NCBI GenBank assembly: GCA_945882615.1
Contig: CAMCWK010000009.1
Span: 1 to 64,000 of the forward strand
From: Rhizobium sp. Q54
GTDB taxonomy: Bacteria > Pseudomonadota > Alphaproteobacteria > Micropepsales > Micropepsaceae
Reading direction: 5' to 3'
DNA: 64,000 nt
Shown here piece by piece: positions 2,415 to 16,659 of the stretch; positions within the stretch are counted from its first letter, which is position 1; every line of letters begins with the position of its first letter. The notes below the pieces were generated by a model. The model had not been told where the DNA came from. It saw nothing but the letters and a program-made list of their open reading frames with translations, and searched no databases. The translations under genes were made by a program, and so were the position numbers.

Positions 2415-3719
2415 ATGAACGTTCCAATACAGGGCCTGCCAAAATCGCACTTGGCGCAATATTCAGCACTCGGTATGCCACTCGCCTTTGCGAGCTTGCC
2501 GCTTTATGTCCATGTGCCCAGTTTCTATTCCACCGTTTCACCGCTTAACCTTGCCACAATTGGTATCATTCTCCTGGCAGTACGTGGCCTAGACATGGTC
2601 TCCGATCCCTTGATCGGCGCCATAAGTGACGCATTTCAGGAGCGTCGGCGAACAATAATGGGCCTAGCCGTGCCGGTATTGGGCTTAGGTTATTTTGCTC
2701 TGTTTTTCCCGCCCGGGCTTTCAGAGGGCGGCCCTGCAGCTGTCTGGCTCTCTGCCAGCCTTATAATAACCTACGCAGGGTTCTCGATTCTCATGATCAA
2801 CTACTATGCCATGGGTATTGGGCTTGCCAATTCTTCGCACGAACATACCAGCGTCGCTCTTTGGCGCGAAGGCGCCATGCTTATTGGTGTATTGGCCGCT
2901 TCGATATTGCCATCATCGCTCATGGGGACACTTACTGTCAAAAATTCCTACGGCGTATTGGCAGTGATGCTGCCGATACTGCTTATTGTGGCAAGCTGTA
3001 TCACCCTGAGGGTGAAAACTGGCCCTGCGCGGTCTCCTGAATCGCGTTTCGTCCCATTCCAATTGCTTCAAAATCATCGCTTGCGCTGGATATTATTTGT
3101 GATTTTTGTCAACGCGCTTCCTATGGCTATCACATCGACACTCTTTATTTTCTTTGTGGAAGACATACTTGGTGTTCCAAAACAGGCTGGGCTGATGCTC
3201 GGTCTATACTTTTTCAGCGCGGTGATCGGAATGCCAGTATGGTCGCGCCTAAGCGTACTAATCGGAAAAACTAATACCCTTTTGATTTCCATTTTGGCAT
3301 CGATAGGGTGCTTCATTTGGGCGGCACTTCTAGGACCGGGCGATGCATACGCATTCTATGCCATTTGTTTTCTGTCCGGCACAACATTGGGGGCAGATAT
3401 GGTATTGCTGCCATCTCTATTCTCCGAGGAACTCGTCAAAGCGCGCGCCCAGTTGGGAACAGGTTTTGGTTGGTGGAGCTTTCTCAACAAGGCTGCGCTG
3501 GCATTGGCCGCCGGTATCACACTTCCATTGCTGACCGCTGGCGGTTACCAGCCCGGCACCGCCAACAACGTCCATGCTCTGGCGCTATTGTCGTTTACTT
3601 ATGCGCTGTTGCCATGTGGATGCAAATTGGCTGCCGCTGCTGCGCTGTATTTTGGCCCCCTTATGCAAGGCCGGGCAATCCAGCTCGTAGCAACCGAGAG
3701 TTCTGGCAAGCCCCAATGA
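2415..3719 (+). CDS. MFS transporter, GPH (MelB-like) type
   Basis: A 434-residue inner-membrane protein with about 12 hydrophobic segments. The loop after helix 2 carries RGLDMVSDPLIGAISDAFQE followed by RRR, the signature of the glycoside-pentoside-hexuronide/MelB branch (MFS_2). The substrate cannot be told; relatives in RpoE/ChrR gene groups are annotated as sugar:cation symporters without experimental proof, as far as I recall. GGCAGGAG precedes the ATG. Its last codons overlap the next SDR gene in an ATGA junction, so the two are translationally coupled. Base composition is clearly lower in GC than the genes after 6410, which agrees with foreign origin. Confidence 0.85.
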   Translation: MNVPIQGLPKSHLAQYSALGMPLAFASLPLYVHVPSFYSTVSPLNLATIGIILLAVRGLDMVSDPLIGAISDAFQERRRTIMGLAVPVLGLGYFALFFPPGLSEGGPAAVWLSASLIITYAGFSILMINYYAMGIGLANSSHEHTSVALWREGAMLIGVLAASILPSSLMGTLTVKNSYGVLAVMLPILLIVASCITLRVKTGPARSPESRFVPFQLLQNHRLRWILFVIFVNALPMAITSTLFIFFVEDILGVPKQAGLMLGLYFFSAVIGMPVWSRLSVLIGKTNTLLISILASIGCFIWAALLGPGDAYAFYAICFLSGTTLGADMVLLPSLFSEELVKARAQLGTGFGWWSFLNKAALALAAGITLPLLTAGGYQPGTANNVHALALLSFTYALLPCGCKLAAAAALYFGPLMQGRAIQLVATESSGKPQ

Positions 3720-7780: not shown

Positions 7781-9763
7781 CTAAAGAGCAGGAACCGCAA
7801 AATGCGCAGGCGCTTCGCCGCGCCGGTTCCGCGCCGCCATCTCCTGATAGGCCGCTTCCATGTGGCGGGCGAAGCGCACCGTGTCGAACAGCGGGGTGGT
7901 CAGCCGGTGCTTTTCCAGCCGACCCTTGATCGCTTTCAACTGGGCGGGGTTCTGCGCCAGCATCACCGCCAGCGCCTCATAGGCCGGCAGATCATCGCAG
8001 ATCAGATCGTCCAGTCCGATGGCGGTCAGCAGGCTGGCGGCGACGCGGCCCGGCCATGTGGTGCCGCGGCAGGTGATGATCGGCACCCCGGCCCACAAGA
8101 CGTCGGCTGCCGTGGTGTGGGCATTGTAGGGCAGGTTATCCAGCGACAGGTCGGCCAGCTTCAGCCGCGCCAGATGCTGGGCGGATGATACCGGGTCCGC
8201 AAAGATCAGCCGCTGCGGATCAATCCCGGCGGCGCCGGCCTCGCGGCGCAGATTTCCGGCATAGGCGGGATTGTTGCCCGCCAGCAGCCATAAGACACTG
8301 CCCGGCGTCTGATCCAGAATCCGCATCCAGGACGCAAAGGTGGCGGGCGTCAGCTTGTAGCTGCTGTTGAAATTGCAGAAGACGAACGCATCGCCTGGCA
8401 AGCCGCATTCGGCGCGGCTGGGTGTTTCATCCGCGATGGTGCGCTCGGAATCGTTGACCCAGTAAGTCTCCGGCAGCCACACCACCTTTTCGTCGTAGAA
8501 GTCCCGCTCGCCGTCCGGTATCACGATGCGGTCGGCCAGAATGTAATCGATATAGGCGAGGCCCAGCGTGGCAGGAAAGCCCATATAGCTGACCTGCACC
8601 GGGGCAGGGCGATGCGCGAAAATGCCAAGCCGCTCGGCGCCGAAATAGCCATTCAGGGTCACCAGAACGTCGATGCCTTCGCGGCGGATGCGCTCGGCCG
8701 CGGCGGTGTCGGACAGATGGGTGATGTCGATGAAGCGGTCGAAGACGGCCAGCGCCCGCTGGCGGATATGGTCATTGCTGGCATCGCCGGTGTTGAAGGC
8801 GAAAATCTCGAACCGGCTTTTGTCATGCTGCTCGTACAGCCCCGCCAGCAACAGGCCTACCGCCTGTTCGCGAAAGTCGCCCGAGACATAGCCGATGCGA
8901 ATTTTGTCCCGCCTTGACGGCGCATGGGGCTGAAAAGCCTGGGCCGGATAGCGGCTCTGGCCATAGGTACGCGAACAGGATTGCGAGTGTGCGGGGCTTT
9001 CCACGATCGCCTGATAGGCGAAGGGGTGAATGACCAGCTTGCCGGCACGGACCTCCTGATGGACCAGTGCGGTCTGGTGTTCGAAATCCCGCCAGTCGGC
9101 AGCGAACATCTTCAGATGCAGAAGACTGCCGCGCAGCAGCGCCCGCCCGGGCTCCAGAATGAGCGCCTTTTCCAGGTCCGCCGTCGCGGCAAGGTTGTCG
9201 AGCTTTTCGCTCCACAGCAGGTCGCCACGGTTCTGCAGCGCGTCCGCAAAGTCGGGTGTCAGCGCCAGGGCCCGGTTGAAACTGTCCAGTGCCTCGTCGA
9301 TCCGCCGCAGGCTGCGCAGCAACAGTCCGCGCCCGTTCCAGGCATCGGCATTGCGCGGGTCCACCGCCAGTACCGATTCATAATCGGCCAGCGCGGCAGC
9401 AAAGCGGCCCAGCGCCTTCAGCGCCGTGCCCCGGCCCATCAGCGCGGTCGGCTCGCCCGGCTGGAAGGCCAGCAGGCGGTCGAAACGGGCGACCGCTTCG
9501 CCAAAGCGGCTTTGTCCCAACAGGGCCAGGCCATAATGGGCCAGCGCGGCGGGGTCGTTCGGATTGATCGCCAGCGCCCGTTCAATCAGCTGGGCAGCCT
9601 CGCCGCTATCGCCCTGCTGCAAGCGCAGCATGCCCAGCAGATAGAGCGCGGGGAAAACGCGCGGATCGAGCGCCAGTATCTGCCGGTACAGCGTCTCCGC
9701 TTCGTTCAGCCGACCCTGCTGATGCAACTGGGTGGCTTGCCGGCCGAGGGCGTGGAGGTCCAT
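7781..9763 (-). CDS. TPR and GT41 (OGT/SPINDLY-like) glycosyltransferase, copy 3
   Basis: A 660-residue protein. Residues 1-205 form six 34-residue TPR units, a spacer follows, and residues ~285-645 form a GT41 catalytic domain (RIGYVSGDF, RPAPVQVSYMGFPATLG, FCNFNSSYKLTP, YNAHTTAADVLWAGVPI). GT41 enzymes transfer sugar from a nucleotide donor to Ser/Thr of proteins held by the TPRs. The position of the conserved catalytic His (human OGT His498) is Gln300 here (GDFREQAV). It is last of three tandem paralogs. The ATG at 9763 lies 3 bases after the preceding stop, and AAGGA at the end of that gene serves as its ribosome binding site. A FlmG-like flagellin glycosyltransferase role is possible, but no flagellar gene is in view. 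Confidence 0.88.
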   Translation of the reverse strand: MDLHALGRQATQLHQQGRLNEAETLYRQILALDPRVFPALYLLGMLRLQQGDSGEAAQLIERALAINPNDPAALAHYGLALLGQSRFGEAVARFDRLLAFQPGEPTALMGRGTALKALGRFAAALADYESVLAVDPRNADAWNGRGLLLRSLRRIDEALDSFNRALALTPDFADALQNRGDLLWSEKLDNLAATADLEKALILEPGRALLRGSLLHLKMFAADWRDFEHQTALVHQEVRAGKLVIHPFAYQAIVESPAHSQSCSRTYGQSRYPAQAFQPHAPSRRDKIRIGYVSGDFREQAVGLLLAGLYEQHDKSRFEIFAFNTGDASNDHIRQRALAVFDRFIDITHLSDTAAAERIRREGIDVLVTLNGYFGAERLGIFAHRPAPVQVSYMGFPATLGLAYIDYILADRIVIPDGERDFYDEKVVWLPETYWVNDSERTIADETPSRAECGLPGDAFVFCNFNSSYKLTPATFASWMRILDQTPGSVLWLLAGNNPAYAGNLRREAGAAGIDPQRLIFADPVSSAQHLARLKLADLSLDNLPYNAHTTAADVLWAGVPIITCRGTTWPGRVAASLLTAIGLDDLICDDLPAYEALAVMLAQNPAQLKAIKGRLEKHRLTTPLFDTVRFARHMEAAYQEMAARNRRGEAPAHFAVPAL

Positions 9764-9766
9764 GTC

Positions 9767-11857
9767 TCAGTCCTTCACGGCAAAAGCTTGTGGCGCGTCA
9801 CCCGCCAGCCAGCGCTGCCACATCTGGTCATAGGCGGACTCGATGCGGCGGCGAAACAGGTCGGTGTCGAACAGTTCGCATGTCATGCGGGTATTCTTCA
9901 GCCGGTCGCGCAGGGTCTGGAGCACTTTGGCCTCGCGCGCCAGCTGAACCGCCATGGCTTCGTATTCGGCCGGGCTTTCGGTCACCAGCTCGGGAAGGCC
10001 AGCCGCGTGCAGCAAGCTGGCGGCGACGCGCCCCGCAAAGGCATGGCCGCGCCGGGTGAGCAGCGGTACGCCGGCCCACAAGGCGTCGCTGGCGGTGGTG
10101 TGGGCGTTGTAGGGCAAGCTGTCGAGGAACAGGTCGGCGAGTGTGAGGCGGGCCAGATGATCCGCCGGGGCGCGGTCGGGCGCGAAGATGATGCGGGCGC
10201 CGTCCACGCCATGCTTCTGGGCCTGCTTGCGGATATTGTCGGCAAACGGCGCCGGGCTTTCCAGCAGCCACAACACACTGCCCTCCACCTGCCGCAAGAT
10301 CCGCATCCAGCCGGCAAAGGTGTCGGGCGTCAGCTTGTAGGCATTGTTGAAATTGCAGAAGACGAAACCCTTGTCCGGCAGGCCGGCGTCGATCCGGCTG
10401 GGCGGATTTGCGATGGGGCGGCCCTTATTGTCATTGGCCTGATAGCTGCCGGGCAGGGTGACAACCTTTTCGTCATAGAAACGCTGCTCGTCTTCGGGAA
10501 TCACCACTTTGTCGGCGATGATATAGTCCATATAGGGCGCGCCCAGCGTGGCGGGGAAGCCCAGATAATTGACCTGGACCGGCGCGGGCCGGCACGCGAA
10601 CACGCCCATGCGCGGCTTGCCGAAATAGCCGTTGAGATTGACCAGTATGTCGATTTCCTCGGCGCGGATCGCCGCTGCTGCATCTTCGTCCGACAGCTGC
10701 GAAATATCGATCCACTTGTCGAACGCCTTCTCGAGCCGGCTGCGCATGGCGCTGGCGTCGCTATAGCCATTGTCCAGCGCGATCAGCTCGAACCTGCCGC
10801 GGTCATGGGCTTCGTACAGCCCAGCCAACAAGATCTGCGTGGCCTGTTGGCGAAATTCGCCCGACACATAGCCCAGGCGAATCTTCTTGTGGTTCTTGCG
10901 CGCCGCGCGGTCATGCGGCGCGAGGGGACTTTCCAGATACATGTCCCGAGCCCAGATGCGCGAGCAGGCCTGAATAGTCGCCGGACTGTCCGACACGGCC
11001 TGGAATATGAAAGGCCGGGCCGAGCGCTTGCCGGAATGCACATCAGCCTCCAGCCGCGCCTTGTCCGCTTCAAATCCGCTCCAGTCCGCCACGCACATTT
11101 TCAAATGCAGAATTTCCCCGACGGCATAGGGATGGTCGGGGTCCAGTTCCAGCGCCCGCTCCAGATCGGCGAGCGCCGGCGCATACTGCTGCTTGTCGGA
11201 CCACCAGGTATAGCCGCGATTGTTCAGCGCCTCGCTGTAACCTGGATGGATGGCGATGGCCTGGCCATAGCTTTCAATGGCTTCGTCGAAGCGCCCCATC
11301 TCGCGCAGGACGTTGCCACGGCTGTTCCAGGCGACGGCGCTTTGCGGTGCGATGGCCAGAACCCGGTCAAAGCTGGCAAGGGCTTCACTGTGTCGTGCCA
11401 GATCATGCAGCGCCAGGCCACGATTGCCCCAGGCTTCCGCCGATTGCGGTTCAAGCGCCAAAGCGTCGTCGAAACTGGCCAGCGCCTCGGCGGGCCGTTT
11501 CAGGTTCCACAGCGCCACGCCCCGATGGTTGAAGAGTCTAGGGTCCCGCGCGCCGGTGGACATCACGGCGTCGAATGCGGCCAGAGCCCGGTCCGCGCGC
11601 CTGAGGGCCATCAAGGCGATACCAAGGCTGTAACGCGCGCCGGCATTGTCGGGGGAAATCCGCAGCGCTTCTTGCAGATGGTTCACCCCTTCGTCGTTGC
11701 GGCCCTGCTGCATCCGCATCAGGCCGAGATAATAGTGCGGACCGAAAAGCTGCGGATCGGCATCCAGGATCTGCAGGTAGAGTGTTTCGGCACCCGTCAG
11801 ATCGCCTTGTTGATGGCTGCGGACGGCCTGTTCGGCCAAGGCCTTGAGGTCCGTCAC
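9767..11857 (-). CDS. TPR and GT41 (OGT/SPINDLY-like) glycosyltransferase, copy 2
   Basis: A 696-residue paralog: seven TPR units (residues ~1-245) and a GT41 domain (~325-685) with RLGYVSGEF, RPAPVQVNYLGFPATLG, NFNNAYKLTP and YNAHTTASDALWAGVPL. Gln338 replaces the catalytic-His position and Glu replaces Asp in SGEF. The start is GTG at 11857, chosen because MTDLKALAEQAVRSHQQGDL aligns with the start of copy 1 and AAGGA in the tail of copy 1 lies 8 bases upstream. Parts of the DNA are identical to copy 1 (84 bases at 10509-10592), so they are recent duplicates or undergo gene conversion. The C-terminus QAFAVKD is shared with copy 1. Confidence 0.88.
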   Translation of the reverse strand: MTDLKALAEQAVRSHQQGDLTGAETLYLQILDADPQLFGPHYYLGLMRMQQGRNDEGVNHLQEALRISPDNAGARYSLGIALMALRRADRALAAFDAVMSTGARDPRLFNHRGVALWNLKRPAEALASFDDALALEPQSAEAWGNRGLALHDLARHSEALASFDRVLAIAPQSAVAWNSRGNVLREMGRFDEAIESYGQAIAIHPGYSEALNNRGYTWWSDKQQYAPALADLERALELDPDHPYAVGEILHLKMCVADWSGFEADKARLEADVHSGKRSARPFIFQAVSDSPATIQACSRIWARDMYLESPLAPHDRAARKNHKKIRLGYVSGEFRQQATQILLAGLYEAHDRGRFELIALDNGYSDASAMRSRLEKAFDKWIDISQLSDEDAAAAIRAEEIDILVNLNGYFGKPRMGVFACRPAPVQVNYLGFPATLGAPYMDYIIADKVVIPEDEQRFYDEKVVTLPGSYQANDNKGRPIANPPSRIDAGLPDKGFVFCNFNNAYKLTPDTFAGWMRILRQVEGSVLWLLESPAPFADNIRKQAQKHGVDGARIIFAPDRAPADHLARLTLADLFLDSLPYNAHTTASDALWAGVPLLTRRGHAFAGRVAASLLHAAGLPELVTESPAEYEAMAVQLAREAKVLQTLRDRLKNTRMTCELFDTDLFRRRIESAYDQMWQRWLAGDAPQAFAVKD

Positions 11858-11861
11858 CCGG

Positions 11862-14366
11862 TCAGTCCTTTACGGCGAACGCCTGTGGTTCTTCCCCCGC
11901 CAGCCAGCGCTGCCACATCTGCTGATAGGCAGCTTCCATGTGGCGCGTGAAACGCGCGGTGTCGAACAGTTCGCCCTTGTCCCGCTTGGCCATCAGTTTG
12001 TCGCGCAAGGCTTTCAGCAGCTTGGCGTCGCTTGCCAGCTTGACCGCCTGCGCCTCGTATTCTTCCTGGCTTTCGGTCACCAGTTCGGGAAGGCCGGCAT
12101 TGAGCAACAGGCTGGCGGCAACCCGGCCGACAAAGGTGCTGCCGCGGCGCGTCAGCAGGGGTACGCCGGCCCACAGGGCATCGCCCGCGGTGGTGTGGGC
12201 GTTGTAGGGCAGGGTGTCGAGCGACAGATCGGCCAGCGCCGTGCGCGCCAGATGTTCCTGCGGCGGCTTGTTGGGCGCAAAGACAATGCGTTCGCCGGCC
12301 ACGCCATGCCTTTGCGCTTCCTTGCGGATATTCTCGGCGAAGGGCGCGTGGCTTTCCAGCAGCCAGAGCAGGCTGCCGTCCACCTGCTTCAGAATGCGCA
12401 TCCAGCCCGCGAAAGTGTCGGGGGTCAGCTTGTAGGCATTGTTGAAATTGCAGAAGACAAAGCCCTTGTCCGGCAGGCCCGCCTCGGTGCGGCTGGGGAT
12501 GGCGCCCAGCGCGCGGCCCTTATCATCATTGGCCAGGTAGCAGCCGGGCAGGATCGCGACTTTCTCGTCATAGAAGCGCTGCTCGTCGTCCGCAATCACC
12601 ACCTTGTCGGCGATGATATAGTCCATATAGGGCGCGCCCAGCGTGGCGGGGAAGCCCAGATAATTGACCTGGACCGGCGCGGGCCGGCGGGCGAACACGC
12701 CCATGCGGGTGCGGCCGAAATAGCCGTTGAGATTGACCAGTATGTCGATCTCCTCGGCGCGGATCCGTGCCGCCGCGTCTTCATCCGACAGGCCGGAGAT
12801 GTCGATCCACTTGTCGAAGGCCTTTTCCAGCCGGCTGCGCATGGCGGTACCATCGCTGACGCCATTGTCCAGGGCGACAAGCTCGAACCGGTCCTTGTCG
12901 TGGGCGTCGTACAGCCCTGCCATCAGGATTTGCACCGCCTGCTCGCGGAATTCGCCGGATGCATAGCCGATGCGGATTTTTTTGCGGTCCTTGCGCGCGG
13001 CACGGTCGTGCGGCGCGCCGGGATTTTCCGGATACATGTGCCGCGCCCAGATGCGCGAACAGGCCTGCATGTCGGCCGGGCTTTCCGCCACCGCCTGATA
13101 CATGAAGGGCCGCGCCACGCGCTGGCCGAAACGCACGCCTTCGTCCAGCTCTGTCTTCTGCGCGGCATAATTGGCCCAGTCCGCGCCATACATGTTCAGG
13201 TGCAGGATTTCACCCTGGATATAGGGATGGTCCGGGTCCAGCAGCTGCACGCGCTTCATGTCGGCCAGGGCCCGCGCATAGTCCTGTTTGTCAGCCCACC
13301 AGCTATAGCCGCGATTGTTGGCGGCTTCCGTATAATCGGGCCGGATGGCGAGCGCCTTGCCATAGCTTTCGATGGCCTCGTCGAAACGCCGCATGTCGCG
13401 CAGAACGTTGCCGCGGCTGTTCCAGGTGACGGGATCGCGGGGCGTTATGGTCAGCAGCATGTCAAAGCTGGCCAGGGCTTCCTCAAAGCGGGCCATGTCC
13501 CGCAGCGCGAGGCCCCGGTTGCCCCAGGCTTCGGCGAAATGCGGCTCGATCGCCAGGGTGCGTTCAAGACTGGCCAGGGCTTCGGTCGGGCGCTTCAGGT
13601 TCCACAGCGCCACGCCGCGATTGTTGAACAGTTCGGCGTCATTGCCGCGCGTTCCCATGACGGCCTCGAACGCCGCCAGGGCCTCGCCCGCGCGCTCAAG
13701 GTCGAGTAGCGCCACGGCAAGATTGTAGCGGGCATCGGCATAGTCGGGCTGCAACGACAGCGCCTGCTCATAGGCCGCCACTGCTTCGGGCAGGCGCCGC
13801 ATTGCCCGCAGCGTCAATCCGCGATTGTTCAGCGCCATGACATTGCCGGGCTGCATCGCCAGCACCCGGTCATGGCTGGCCAGCGCGTCGTCCAGCTGGT
13901 TCATCGCCGCCAGCGCCACGCCCCGGTTGACCAGGGCGGAAATCATTTCAGGCCGTAGCACCAGCGCGCGGTCATAACTTTCCACGGCCATCTCGAAACG
14001 GTGCATGTCGACCAGCGACACACCGCGATTGTAATGGGCCTCGGGCAGGTTGGGATCGATCGCCAGCGCCTTGTCGAAACTCTCCAGCGCTTCGCCGGGG
14101 CGCCCGGCGCCCTGCAGCGCCATGCCGTGATTCATCAGCGCGCCCAGATTGTCGGGAGAAATCTGCAAGGCTTCGCCCAGATAGGTCGCCGCTTCACTGT
14201 TGCGGCCCTGCTGCAGCCGCATCAGCCCCATGTAATAGCGCGGCCCGAACAGGCCGGGATCGGCCTGCAGAATCTGCAGATAAATCTTCTCCGCGCCCGC
14301 AAGGTCGCCCTGCTGGTGCGTGCGGACGGCCTGTTCGGCCATGGCTTTGAGGTCCAGAACTTCCAT
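11862..14366 (-). CDS. TPR and GT41 (OGT/SPINDLY-like) glycosyltransferase, copy 1
   Basis: An 834-residue paralog and first of the tandem set. Eleven TPR units occupy residues ~1-385; the extra four relative to copy 2 sit in the middle of the array, so it looks like internal expansion. The GT41 domain follows with YASGEFREQAV (Gln at the catalytic-His site), RPAPVQVNYLGFPATLG, NFNNAYKLTP and YNAHTTAGDALWAGVPL. The ATG at 14366 (MEVLDLKAMAEQ) is preferred over a start 15 codons earlier because GAAAGAAAAGAAGAA precedes it and the longer form would overlap the end of maeB. TPR number probably sets which protein partners are held. Confidence 0.88.
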   Translation of the reverse strand: MEVLDLKAMAEQAVRTHQQGDLAGAEKIYLQILQADPGLFGPRYYMGLMRLQQGRNSEAATYLGEALQISPDNLGALMNHGMALQGAGRPGEALESFDKALAIDPNLPEAHYNRGVSLVDMHRFEMAVESYDRALVLRPEMISALVNRGVALAAMNQLDDALASHDRVLAMQPGNVMALNNRGLTLRAMRRLPEAVAAYEQALSLQPDYADARYNLAVALLDLERAGEALAAFEAVMGTRGNDAELFNNRGVALWNLKRPTEALASLERTLAIEPHFAEAWGNRGLALRDMARFEEALASFDMLLTITPRDPVTWNSRGNVLRDMRRFDEAIESYGKALAIRPDYTEAANNRGYSWWADKQDYARALADMKRVQLLDPDHPYIQGEILHLNMYGADWANYAAQKTELDEGVRFGQRVARPFMYQAVAESPADMQACSRIWARHMYPENPGAPHDRAARKDRKKIRIGYASGEFREQAVQILMAGLYDAHDKDRFELVALDNGVSDGTAMRSRLEKAFDKWIDISGLSDEDAAARIRAEEIDILVNLNGYFGRTRMGVFARRPAPVQVNYLGFPATLGAPYMDYIIADKVVIADDEQRFYDEKVAILPGCYLANDDKGRALGAIPSRTEAGLPDKGFVFCNFNNAYKLTPDTFAGWMRILKQVDGSLLWLLESHAPFAENIRKEAQRHGVAGERIVFAPNKPPQEHLARTALADLSLDTLPYNAHTTAGDALWAGVPLLTRRGSTFVGRVAASLLLNAGLPELVTESQEEYEAQAVKLASDAKLLKALRDKLMAKRDKGELFDTARFTRHMEAAYQQMWQRWLAGEEPQAFAVKD

Positions 14367-14385: not shown

Positions 14386-16659
14386 TCAGGACTGGGAGGC
14401 GGCCTGGGCAACGGCCAGCGCCGTCATGTTCACGATACCGCGCGCCGTCACCGACGGCACCATCACATGCACCGGCTTGGCGACGCCCAGCAGCAAGGGA
14501 CCCACCAGCAAGCCTTCGGTGGCGGCGGACAATAGCGTCAGCGCGATATTGGCGGCATCCAGCGACGGCATCACCAGCAGATTGGCCGAGCCGGTGAGGG
14601 GACTGGAAGACACATAGCGGCCACGCAGCACGTCGCTCAGCGCGGCATCGGCATGCATTTCACCGTCCAGTTCGAAATCCGGCTCGGACAGGCGCAGCAG
14701 GGCCATGGCGGCGCGCATCTTGCGGGCGCTGGGTGAATCCGAACTGCCGAAACTGGAATGCGACAGCAGCGCCGCCTTGGGCGCGAGGCCGAAGCGGCGC
14801 ACGCTCTTGGCCGCCAAGAGGGTCATTTCGGCGATCTGCTCGGCGCTCGGGTCCAGATTCAAGTGGGTGTCGCAGAAGAACAGCGCGCCGTTGGGCAGGA
14901 TCAGCGCCGACATCGAATAAAGCCGGCTGACGCTGGGCTGGCGCGGAATGATGGGCAGGATATTGGCCAGTTGCCGGGTCCAGTCGCCCAGCCCACCGCA
15001 CAGGGCGGCATCGACATGGCCGGCTTCCAGCAGCATGGCGGCGGCGATGCCATGGCGGCTGACGATCCAGCGCGCCGCGGACTCCGGCTGTACGCCGCGC
15101 CGCTCGACCAGCCGCTGATAGCGTTCGATCAGGGGGCCGATGATTTCATGATCGAGCTGGGGATCGACGATCCGCACCTGGTTGCTGAAATCCAGCCTGA
15201 GGCCAAGCTTTTTGGTCTTTTCGATGATCACGTCGCGGCGGCCGATCAGGGTCGGCTGGGCCAGGCCTTCATCCACCACCGTCTGTACTGCACGCAACAC
15301 GCGTTCTTCCTCGGCCTCGGCATAGACCACGCGGGCAGGGCTCTGGCGCGCCACTTCGAAAACCGGCCGCATCAGCTGGCCGGAACGATAGACGAATTTC
15401 TCCAGCTCGTTCTCGTAAGCGTCGAAATCGGCGATGGGCCGGCGGGCGACACCCGATTCCATGGCGGCGCGCGCCACGGCGGGGGCGATGGACAGGATCA
15501 GGCGCGGATCGAACGGCTTGGGAATGATGTATTCGCTGCCGAAGCCCGGCGCATGGCCGCCATAGGCGGCGGCCACCACGTCGCTGGTCTCGGCCCGGGC
15601 CAGGGCGGCGATGGCTTCGACCGCCGCCACCTTCATCGGCTCGTTGATGGTGGTGGCATCGACATCCAGCGCGCCGCGGAACACGAAGGGGAAGCACAGG
15701 ACATTGTTGACCTGGTTGGCATAGTCCGAGCGCCCGGTGGCGATGATGGCGTCGGGCCGCGCCGCCTTGGCCAATTCGGGCAGGATTTCCGGATCGGGAT
15801 TGGCCAGCGCCAGGATCAGCGGCTTTGGCGCCATCTGCGGCAGCCATTCGGCTTTCAGCACATTGGGCGCCGAAAGGCCCAGGAACACATCGGCGCCGAC
15901 CAGCACATCGCCCAGGGTGCGGGCGTCGGTCTGCCTCGCAAAACGCGCCATGTTGGGCGGCATCTCGTCGCCGCGATCCTTGTGCACCACGCCCTTGATG
16001 TCGGTGAGGGTGACATTGTCGATGGGAAGGCCCATCGCCACCAGCAGGTCGACGCAGGCCAGCGCCGCGGCGCCGGCGCCGCTGGTCACCAGCTTCACAT
16101 CGGCCAACTGCTTGCCCTGCAGCACCAGACCGTTGCGGATGGCGGCGGCGCAGACAATGGCGGTGCCGTGCTGATCGTCATGGAAGACCGGAATCTTCAT
16201 GCGCTCGCGCAGCTTCTTCTCGATGACGAAGCATTCGGGCGCCTTGATGTCTTCCAGATTGATGCCGCCAAAGGTCGGCTCGAGCGCAGCGACGATGTCG
16301 ACAAAGCGGTCGATATCGTGTTCGGCCACTTCCAGGTCGAACACATCGATGCCGGCGAATTTCTTGAAGAGGACGGCCTTGCCTTCCATCACCGGCTTGG
16401 AGGCCAAGGGGCCGATATTGCCCAGCCCCAGCACGGCGGTGCCGTTGGTGATGACCGCCACCAGATTGCCCCGCGCCGTCAGCTCACGCGCCTGGGCCGG
16501 ATCGGCCACGATGGCCTCGCAGGCCGCCGCCACGCCGGGGGAATAGGCCAGCGCCAGGTCGCGCTGATTCGCCATGCGCTTGGTCGCTTCCACCGACAAT
16601 TTGCCGGGGCGCGGGAGGCGGTGATAGGCGAGGGCTGCCTTGCGAAAATCGTCGTCCAT
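14386..16659 (-). CDS. maeB: NADP-dependent malic enzyme with phosphotransacetylase-like domain
   Basis: A 757-residue MaeB-type protein. Residues ~1-420 form the malic enzyme: [45 protein letters not shown] and the Rossmann motif [10 protein letters not shown]. Residues ~430-757 form a phosphotransacetylase-like domain, thought to be regulatory (acetyl-CoA binding) rather than catalytic in this family. It decarboxylates malate to pyruvate with NADP+ in the cytoplasm. The length is normal. It is divergent from gnd, across a 256-base spacer, and upstream of the three glycosyltransferase genes on the same strand, with 19 bases between its stop and their first ATG. Confidence 0.95.

Follow-up and report, generated by a model that had tools for sequence, protein, structure and literature searches.

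How TPR-GT41 enzymes select their proteins is an open question, and a hard one to approach with a single essential human OGT. A feature of OGT is the Asn ladder along its TPR lumen. To our knowledge, a natural protein acceptor has not been proven for any bacterial TPR-GT41.

The active site of human OGT has been probed by mutation. As given in excerpts of the published work, D554A or H558A reduces glycosylation and the double mutant lowers it still further, while swapping Asp554 and His558 abolishes glycosylation and leaves HCF-1 proteolysis in place (PMC4840301). For the plant enzyme SPINDLY (SPY), the available sections of a related study report that H495A and H495F are dead and D491A is active, and favour the donor alpha-phosphate as base (PMC9715652). 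The same sections tie the Tyr that SPY, XcOGT and TtOGT carry at the position of OGT Cys917 to donors smaller than GlcNAc, and describe little or no activity of XcOGT and TtOGT on bacterial proteins (PMC9715652). In Caulobacter FlmG, the TPR part is N-terminal and binds the flagellin acceptor in a cytoplasmic O-glycosylation, according to the part of the report drawn on here (PMC7591256). Among titles and the beginnings of abstracts in the open-access literature, we found no paper on GT41 proteins with Gln in place of His558 or on bacterial GT41 tandem arrays.

Here we describe three TPR-GT41 genes in a window of 64,000 nucleotides from Rhizobium sp. Q54 (G000). With ten paralogues in a 2.85-Mb genome, three of them side by side, acceptor choice would become comparable array by array.

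Architecture of the three-gene array

The window contains three genes of the GT41 family (OGT/SPINDLY kind) with TPRs, which lie head to tail on the minus strand downstream of maeB and are transcribed in the order copy 1, copy 2, copy 3. The genes and their TPR arrays are as follows.

14386..16659, minus strand: maeB-type malic enzyme / phosphotransacetylase gene (Pfam malic, Malic_M, PTA_PTB)
11862..14366, minus strand: copy 1, TPR-GT41 of 834 aa with 11 TPRs and a Glu/Gln pair (Pfam, alignment, model)
13236..14357, minus strand: copy 1 TPR array, 11 units of 34; ladder Asn in 8 of 11
9767..11857, minus strand: copy 2, TPR-GT41 of 696 aa with 7 TPRs and a Glu/Gln pair (Pfam, alignment)
11141..11854, minus strand: copy 2 TPR array, 7 units (copy 1 units 3-6 deleted); ladder Asn in 2 of 7
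7781..9763, minus strand: copy 3, TPR-GT41 of 660 aa with 6 TPRs and an Asp/Gln pair, the older paralogue (Pfam, alignment, tree)
9152..9763, minus strand: copy 3 TPR array, 6 units; ladder R-L-H-G-G-N, Asn in 1 of 6

The genes are separated by 3-19 bases, with 19 between maeB and copy 1, 4 between copies 1 and 2, and 3 between copies 2 and 3. Copy 1 starts with ATG at 14366 and copy 2 with GTG. Each copy matches PF13844 (Glyco_transf_41) with E-values of 4e-85 to 5e-89 and scores of 287-299 bits against a cut-off of 25, in two stretches that correspond to both catalytic lobes, together with many TPR models of Pfam. Counted in steps of 34 residues, the arrays have 11, 7 and 6 units, as an earlier note on this DNA had described. 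NCBIfam gave no match above cut-off in the three copies (for copy 1, among the matches listed). More specifically, NF049992 (UDP-glucose:protein N-glucosyltransferase) reached 23-24 bits against a cut-off of 1000 in copies 1 and 2 and had no match at E 0.001 in copy 3, which places none of the three among the HMW1C/NGT-type GT41 proteins.

Between 7600 and 17000, no promoter- or terminator-like sites were found; this absence fits a single transcript that probably carries maeB and all three copies. The genes zwf, gnd and pgl, named by eye from their translations, lie near the array on the opposite strand, and no evident acceptor or donor gene stands beside the three genes. A search of plasmid DNA returned a single weak Azospirillum match over 3% of the query.

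The fold of copy 1 was modeled with AlphaFold2 (mean pLDDT 91.2, pTM 0.78) and is predicted to be an OGT-like superhelix plus a GT-B domain. The best solved match to this model is XcOGT (2jlb) with a Z-score of 49.1 and 2.8 Å over 543 aligned residues, followed by TtOGT and by Drosophila and human OGT (Z 40-42), SPY (about 40) and NGT (28-29). Model and structural matches cover copy 1 only.

Evolution of the locus

The gene order maeB - GT41 - cupin - SDR is conserved (cupin and SDR named by eye from translations), and maeB likewise lies 5' of copy 1 in L057-L062 and L064. The triple recurs in the same order and place in three relatives, with 77-86% protein identity: in L057 (taken as contig C17 of G015), in L060, and in L058/L063, two contigs of one record between which copy 1 is split. 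An assembly artefact, which the earlier note had kept in view, is therefore unlikely, since the same triple stands on contigs of other records. Other relatives carry a single copy-1-like gene at the locus, which is full length in L059, L061, L062 and L064 and cut by the contig end in L065. The zwf-gnd-pgl block is a fixed neighbour throughout, single-gene loci included.

An array of 11 units is present in all four full-length single genes. In 4/4 triple-bearing genomes, copy 2 is short of exactly 136 aa (4 x 34, corresponding to copy 1 units 3-6), at one place. Because the single genes all have 11 units and every copy 2 has the same gap, the difference goes back to a deletion: 11 units are the ancestral state at this locus, and copy 2 was shortened by four TPRs, most simply in one event. 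This reverses the direction proposed in the earlier note, which had read the extra units as an internal expansion of copy 1.

A careful tree built from 30 GT domains, without the incomplete copy 1 of L058, unites copy 1 of three species (100/100). Copies 1 and 2 combine into a larger group (91/86), which has the single gene of L064 as its neighbour (94/97); the branching order among the copy 2 rows is not resolved. Since the copy 1 rows of three species group apart from those of copy 2, the split between these two copies is older than the species, and the idea that they are recent duplicates falls away. Copy 3 forms a separate branch (100/100). Its grouping with copies 1 and 2 was rejected at p-AU 0.0003, or 0.0014 when single genes were added, in AU tests whose groups were chosen after the first tree. 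Copy 3 is the older paralogue.

Copies 1 and 2 also share an identical stretch of DNA, previously reported as 84 bases. The identity is exact and its true length is 85 bases.

12604..12688, minus strand: copy 1 end of the 85-base identity (conversion tract)
10509..10593, minus strand: copy 2 end of the 85-base identity (conversion tract)

None of 5000 codon-column shuffles reached 85 bases, the maximum being 64. The longest identity between copies 1 and 2 in relatives is 30 bases in L060 and 38 in G015, both ordinary by shuffles. The synonymous difference between the two copies is 0.05-0.12 in the tract against 0.43 over the GT domains, and 0.39-0.52 at the tract position in the L060 and G015 species. 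The simplest reading is one recent conversion tract in this lineage, which upholds the conversion that had been suspected. A milder synonymous dip in G015 (0.17-0.20, two windows near residue 500) may be another, older tract.

Eight ortholog pairs (two of copy 1, three of copy 2 and three of copy 3; synonymous differences 0.37-0.51 per site) were compared in the style of Nei-Gojobori and gave dN/dS values of 0.158-0.249 across the TPRs and of 0.115-0.247 across the GT domains. All three copies are under purifying selection, and none resembles a decaying gene. The triple is real, conserved and selected, and its products are probably enzymatic.

A replaced active-site pair marks a GT41 subclade

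To compare the catalytic residues, 71 distinct GT41 reading frames were collected, and the 62 with a length of 540 aa or more entered an alignment with two pieces of human OGT. The alignment places the following residues in the three copies.

12939..12953, minus strand: copy 1 active-site pair Glu472 / Gln476 (human OGT Asp554 / His558)
12429..12431, minus strand: copy 1 Lys646 (OGT Lys842)
12204..12206, minus strand: copy 1 Tyr721, at the position of OGT Cys917 / SPY Tyr744
10844..10858, minus strand: copy 2 active-site pair Glu334 / Gln338
10334-10336, minus strand: copy 2 Lys508 (OGT Lys842 equivalent)
10109-10111, minus strand: copy 2 Tyr at the OGT Cys917 position
8864..8878, minus strand: copy 3 active-site pair Asp296 / Gln300
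8354-8356, minus strand: copy 3 Lys470 (OGT Lys842 equivalent)
8126-8128, minus strand: copy 3 Tyr at the OGT Cys917 position

All three copies and their orthologs have Gln where OGT/SPY-like GT41 proteins have His (OGT His558). The catalytic Lys of GT41 (OGT Lys842) is present in all three, as are the equivalents of OGT His901, His920, Thr922 and Asp925. What is new here, as judged by alignment, is that these proteins are GT41 by family tests but have a key active-site residue replaced.

The same replacement defines a wider Q subclade, with Gln for OGT His558 and mostly Glu for Asp554. Five of the ten GT41 genes in this genome are of Q type (copies 1-3, the gene on C36 and one of those on C24), and five are Asp/His. 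Among the 27 Q rows that span the positions, Lys842, His920 and Asp925 equivalents are present in 27/27 and that of His901 in 25/27, with Gln in L018 and L034. Both trait residues (the Asp554 and His558 positions) were excluded from the trees of this clade. In the first tree, from which 8/64 rows had been left out beforehand (near-copies, fragments and the OGT pieces), the Q rows make up one side of a branch with 26/56 rows and an SH-aLRT of 99. In an extended tree, with 19 chosen loci added and six long-branch rows dropped, they again make up one side (32/69 rows, SH-aLRT 96).

The Tyr at the Cys917 position also occurs in most Asp/His-type rows and is therefore not special to the Q type. For the three copies, it fits a donor smaller than GlcNAc, and Tyr in place of Cys917 argues against GlcNAc transfer from UDP-GlcNAc to Ser/Thr.

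Distribution of GT41 genes and of the Q type

PF13844 matches 20 pieces in this genome, which belong to ten genes: three in the window, two on C24 and one each on C36, C1, C20, C6 and C27. GT41 is present in 19 of 41 genomes searched (its own, 24 of the genus and 16 of the class). Across 60 genus genomes, the number of GT-domain matches ranges from 0 to 14, with the maximum in G428 and 11 in G015, and 28 genomes have no GT41 match at 1e-30. The best loci read in 30 genus genomes comprise 19 Q and 11 His, the weak matches of G019 and G420 standing outside this count.

Beyond the genus, a class scan covered 385 genomes (106 matching, 27 best loci read) and a phylum scan 398 genomes (70 matching, 29 best loci read). 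The resulting 56 best loci are 52 Asp/His, one Glu/His, one Asp/Phe and two Glu/Gln; as these are the best loci of the top genomes only, the Q-type count is a lower bound. The two Glu/Gln loci, L140 (from G702, in a different family of the same class) and L141 (from G618, in a different class of the same phylum), join the Q clade in the extended tree. Judged from these aligned residues, the Q state extends beyond the genus, and it may have spread by lateral transfer. A restriction to the genus had been considered, with 0/27 Q in the class scan (26 His, 1 Phe), and was overturned by L140 and L141.

Several unusual GT41 arrangements were seen in these genomes. L098 (G104) encodes a GT41 with Phe at the His558 position, the sole case among the 56 outside loci. 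An open frame of 3767 aa in another class of the phylum (L169:1251-12554, G529 C92) contains four GT41 domains, at residues 374-813, 1196-1632, 1875-2309 and 2728-3168, and other phylum-scan genomes, among them G550, G494 and G514, have two or three GT41 matches within single open frames of about 2300-3200 aa. In the same genus, L170:1814-4558 (G012 C187) has two GT41 matches in one open frame of about 1175-1243 aa, possibly a fused pair. At L037:4619-9693 and L044:4034-9165, two GT41 genes, one of Asp/His type and one of Q type, converge so that their 3' ends overlap; the pair adjoins a gene for a TonB-dependent receptor and is kept in two genomes. Finally, genes for a HAD phosphatase, a nucleotidyltransferase and a GalE-like epimerase lie 3' of the Asp/His-type GT41 gene on C1 (L039:10922-13162), forming a possible donor pathway for this paralogue.

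Flagellin, donor and companion genes

Both flagellin matches of this genome lie on C19, a contig other than that of the array, in agreement with the earlier note that no flagellin genes are adjacent. Of two NeuB matches, NeuB is found on C19 with the flagellins. The flagellin locus has a separate 591-aa TPR protein (L135) whose C-terminal part has no Pfam match; by place and build, it is a candidate FlmG-like protein.

Among 16 genus genomes (G000-G015) sorted by their best GT41 locus, seven are Q-type carriers (G000, G001, G006, G008, G009, G012 and G015). Flagellin is found in 5/7 of these carriers against 7/9 of the others, NeuB in 4/7 against 6/9, gmd above cut-off in 2/7 against 2/9, and GH84 in 0/7 against 4/9. 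With such counts, a nonulosonic acid donor, a GDP-fucose donor and GH84-based cycling were each rejected as general companions of Q-type genes.

G015, rated 100% complete, has no flagellin and no NeuB match, and its triple is intact. Its best gmd match scores 24.6 bits against a cut-off of 415. The FlmG-like gene of this genome is a frame-broken remnant, in two pieces in different frames (L173:2376-2915, C2), flanked by a small gene that also flanks the FlmG-like gene in G000. In G006, which likewise has Q-type genes, flagellin gave no match and the FlmG-like stretch is interrupted by 3 stops. Against this tidy pattern, G014 has no flagellin match and yet a full FlmG-like match. The dependence on flagellin and nonulosonic acid synthesis that marks the FlmG type is absent, as G015 keeps the triple without either, and a flagellin link of the window genes was abandoned on these grounds and on the placement of the flagellins on another contig. 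Since G015 keeps the triple without a NeuB match and without gmd above cut-off, neither a nonulosonic acid nor GDP-fucose is likely as a general donor. In G004, G025 and G026, a GT41 gene lies about 2-4 kb from a flagellin gene, and these genes (L019, L022, L024) are of Asp/His type. Some GT41s, other than those of the window, may thus serve flagellin.

The neighbours of Q-type loci vary. A TonB-dependent receptor gene lies by the C24 pair and its G015 counterpart, and another near the L046 gene of G015; as neighbours differ between loci, they name no acceptor. A Q-type GT41 gene of G009 shares its last four bases with a GT7 (galactosyltransferase-type) gene that follows it (L052:4022-7323). 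GT7 as a general sugar-extending partner was rejected, PF02709 being found in 1/7 Q-type carriers among G000-G015.

TPR lumens, proposed function and alternatives

The three TPR lumens differ in length and lining. Of the 11 units, 7-9 have Asn at the ladder position in copy 1, in its orthologs and in relatives with a single gene; for the copy 2 orthologs the figure is 2-4 of 7. The four units missing from copy 2 have ladder Asn in 4/4 of their copy 1 counterparts. In the copy 3 orthologs, the ladder letters R-L-H-G-G-N are identical in 4/4 species, with Asn in 1/6. Of the evidence gathered, these differences point most clearly, though indirectly, to different acceptors. The multi-target glycosylation that the earlier note had proposed is accordingly plausible, with indirect support from lumen divergence.

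For the three copies, we infer catalytic activity, protein acceptors, a division of labour, co-transcription and a donor. We consider it rather likely, from sequence comparison, that they are cytosolic protein glycosyltransferases with an ordinary nucleotide sugar as donor, and that their diverged TPR lumens select acceptors other than flagellin. The TPR superhelix of each copy would hold acceptor proteins and feed them into the C-terminal GT-B domain, which would transfer a single sugar. The base would be the alpha-phosphate of the donor, a role put forward for it in OGT and SPY, so that an altered Asp554/His558 pair would be tolerable. Copy 1, with the ancestral 11-unit Asn-lined array, would bind extended or disordered segments broadly, while copy 2, with four units deleted, and copy 3, with almost no Asn ladder, would take other or narrower acceptor sets. 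The natural replacement of Asp/His bears on the dispute between that pair and the donor phosphate as catalytic base; if active, Q-type enzymes would mean that His558 is dispensable in nature.

The counterpoint is that the Asp/His pair matters in the OGT and SPY enzymes tested, so that a Glu/Gln enzyme could be inactive or work differently. One such difference, which we regard as unlikely, would be a shift of Q-type GT41 by the Glu/Gln pair to a nucleophile other than the Ser/Thr hydroxyl or to another sugar. The Q rows, two of them from outside the genus, fall on one side of a branch as if the state had arisen once and been kept; the rest of the donor site is conserved; and in human OGT the pair mainly affects Ser/Thr glycosylation and not HCF-1 proteolysis, according to the published excerpts (PMC4840301). 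However, positive evidence for another nucleophile is lacking, and Gln could retain the hydrogen bonding of His. A wider form of the idea, in which the Q-type clade would be a separate catalytic class with a Glu/Gln pair, a different residue or sugar, and paralogue lumens that read different protein sets, is doubtful and yet deserves some weight. Were the enzymes inactive, the copies would be TPR adaptors with a degenerate GT domain. The lost residue is essential in SPY (PMC9715652, in part) and important in OGT (PMC4840301, in part), but the constraint on the GT domains (dN/dS 0.115-0.247) is about equal to that on the TPRs (0.158-0.249) and the Lys842, His920, Asp925 and His901 equivalents are retained as described above, which makes silent scaffolds improbable.

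The acceptor could also be of another kind. That a polysaccharide, lipid or small molecule is the substrate would be compatible with the fact that no protein acceptor is known and with the sugar-metabolism genes zwf, gnd and pgl nearby on the other strand. This block, however, adjoins single-gene loci too, and the proteins are built like OGT, a TPR superhelix being linked to the catalytic domain and, in copy 1, lined by an Asn ladder; we find such a substrate quite improbable. FlmG-like enzymes that produce differently modified flagellins are very improbable. Such a role is suggested by the two flagellins and two NeuB matches of this genome, by the binding of flagellin through the TPR part of FlmG (PMC7591256, in the part drawn on here) and by the GT41 genes close to flagellin genes in three genomes. 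Those genes are of Asp/His type, however, and the flagellin locus here has its own TPR protein; moreover, the triple is intact in G015, which has neither flagellin nor an unbroken FlmG-like gene, G006 is comparable, and flagellin is no more frequent in Q-type carriers than in the others. Flagellin is thus probably not the target of the three copies, and we retain non-flagellin proteins as the favoured acceptors.

Comparison with known systems

The array can be set beside four described systems. FlmG puts pseudaminic acid on flagellins, whereas the window triple persists without flagellin; the FlmG-like candidate of this genome is the separate L135, likened by place and build, whose C-terminal part has no PF13844 match. 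SPINDLY, a plant protein O-fucosyltransferase of GT41, shares the fold with copy 1 (Z about 40, rmsd 11 over the whole protein), and its Tyr744-type residue is also found in the window copies. It needs His495, as stated in the sections cited (PMC9715652), where the window copies have Gln. Human OGT has the TPR superhelix, the GT-B domain, Lys842, His901, His920 and Asp925 in common with the window copies, and its Asn ladder is largely kept in copy 1. In contrast, its Asp554/His558 and Cys917 are replaced by Glu or Asp with Gln, and by Tyr, and its intervening region is absent from the window copies (alignment break at query 615-623 against chain 738-859). XcOGT (Xanthomonas campestris XCC0866, PDB 2jlb/2vsn) shares the TPR and GT-B architecture with copy 1 at 33% identity, although its TPR part is shorter (548-residue chain). 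Its residue at the OGT 558 position is His (His218). Both XcOGT and copy 1 carry Tyr at the position of OGT Cys917, the XcOGT residue being taken from the cited sections of PMC9715652.
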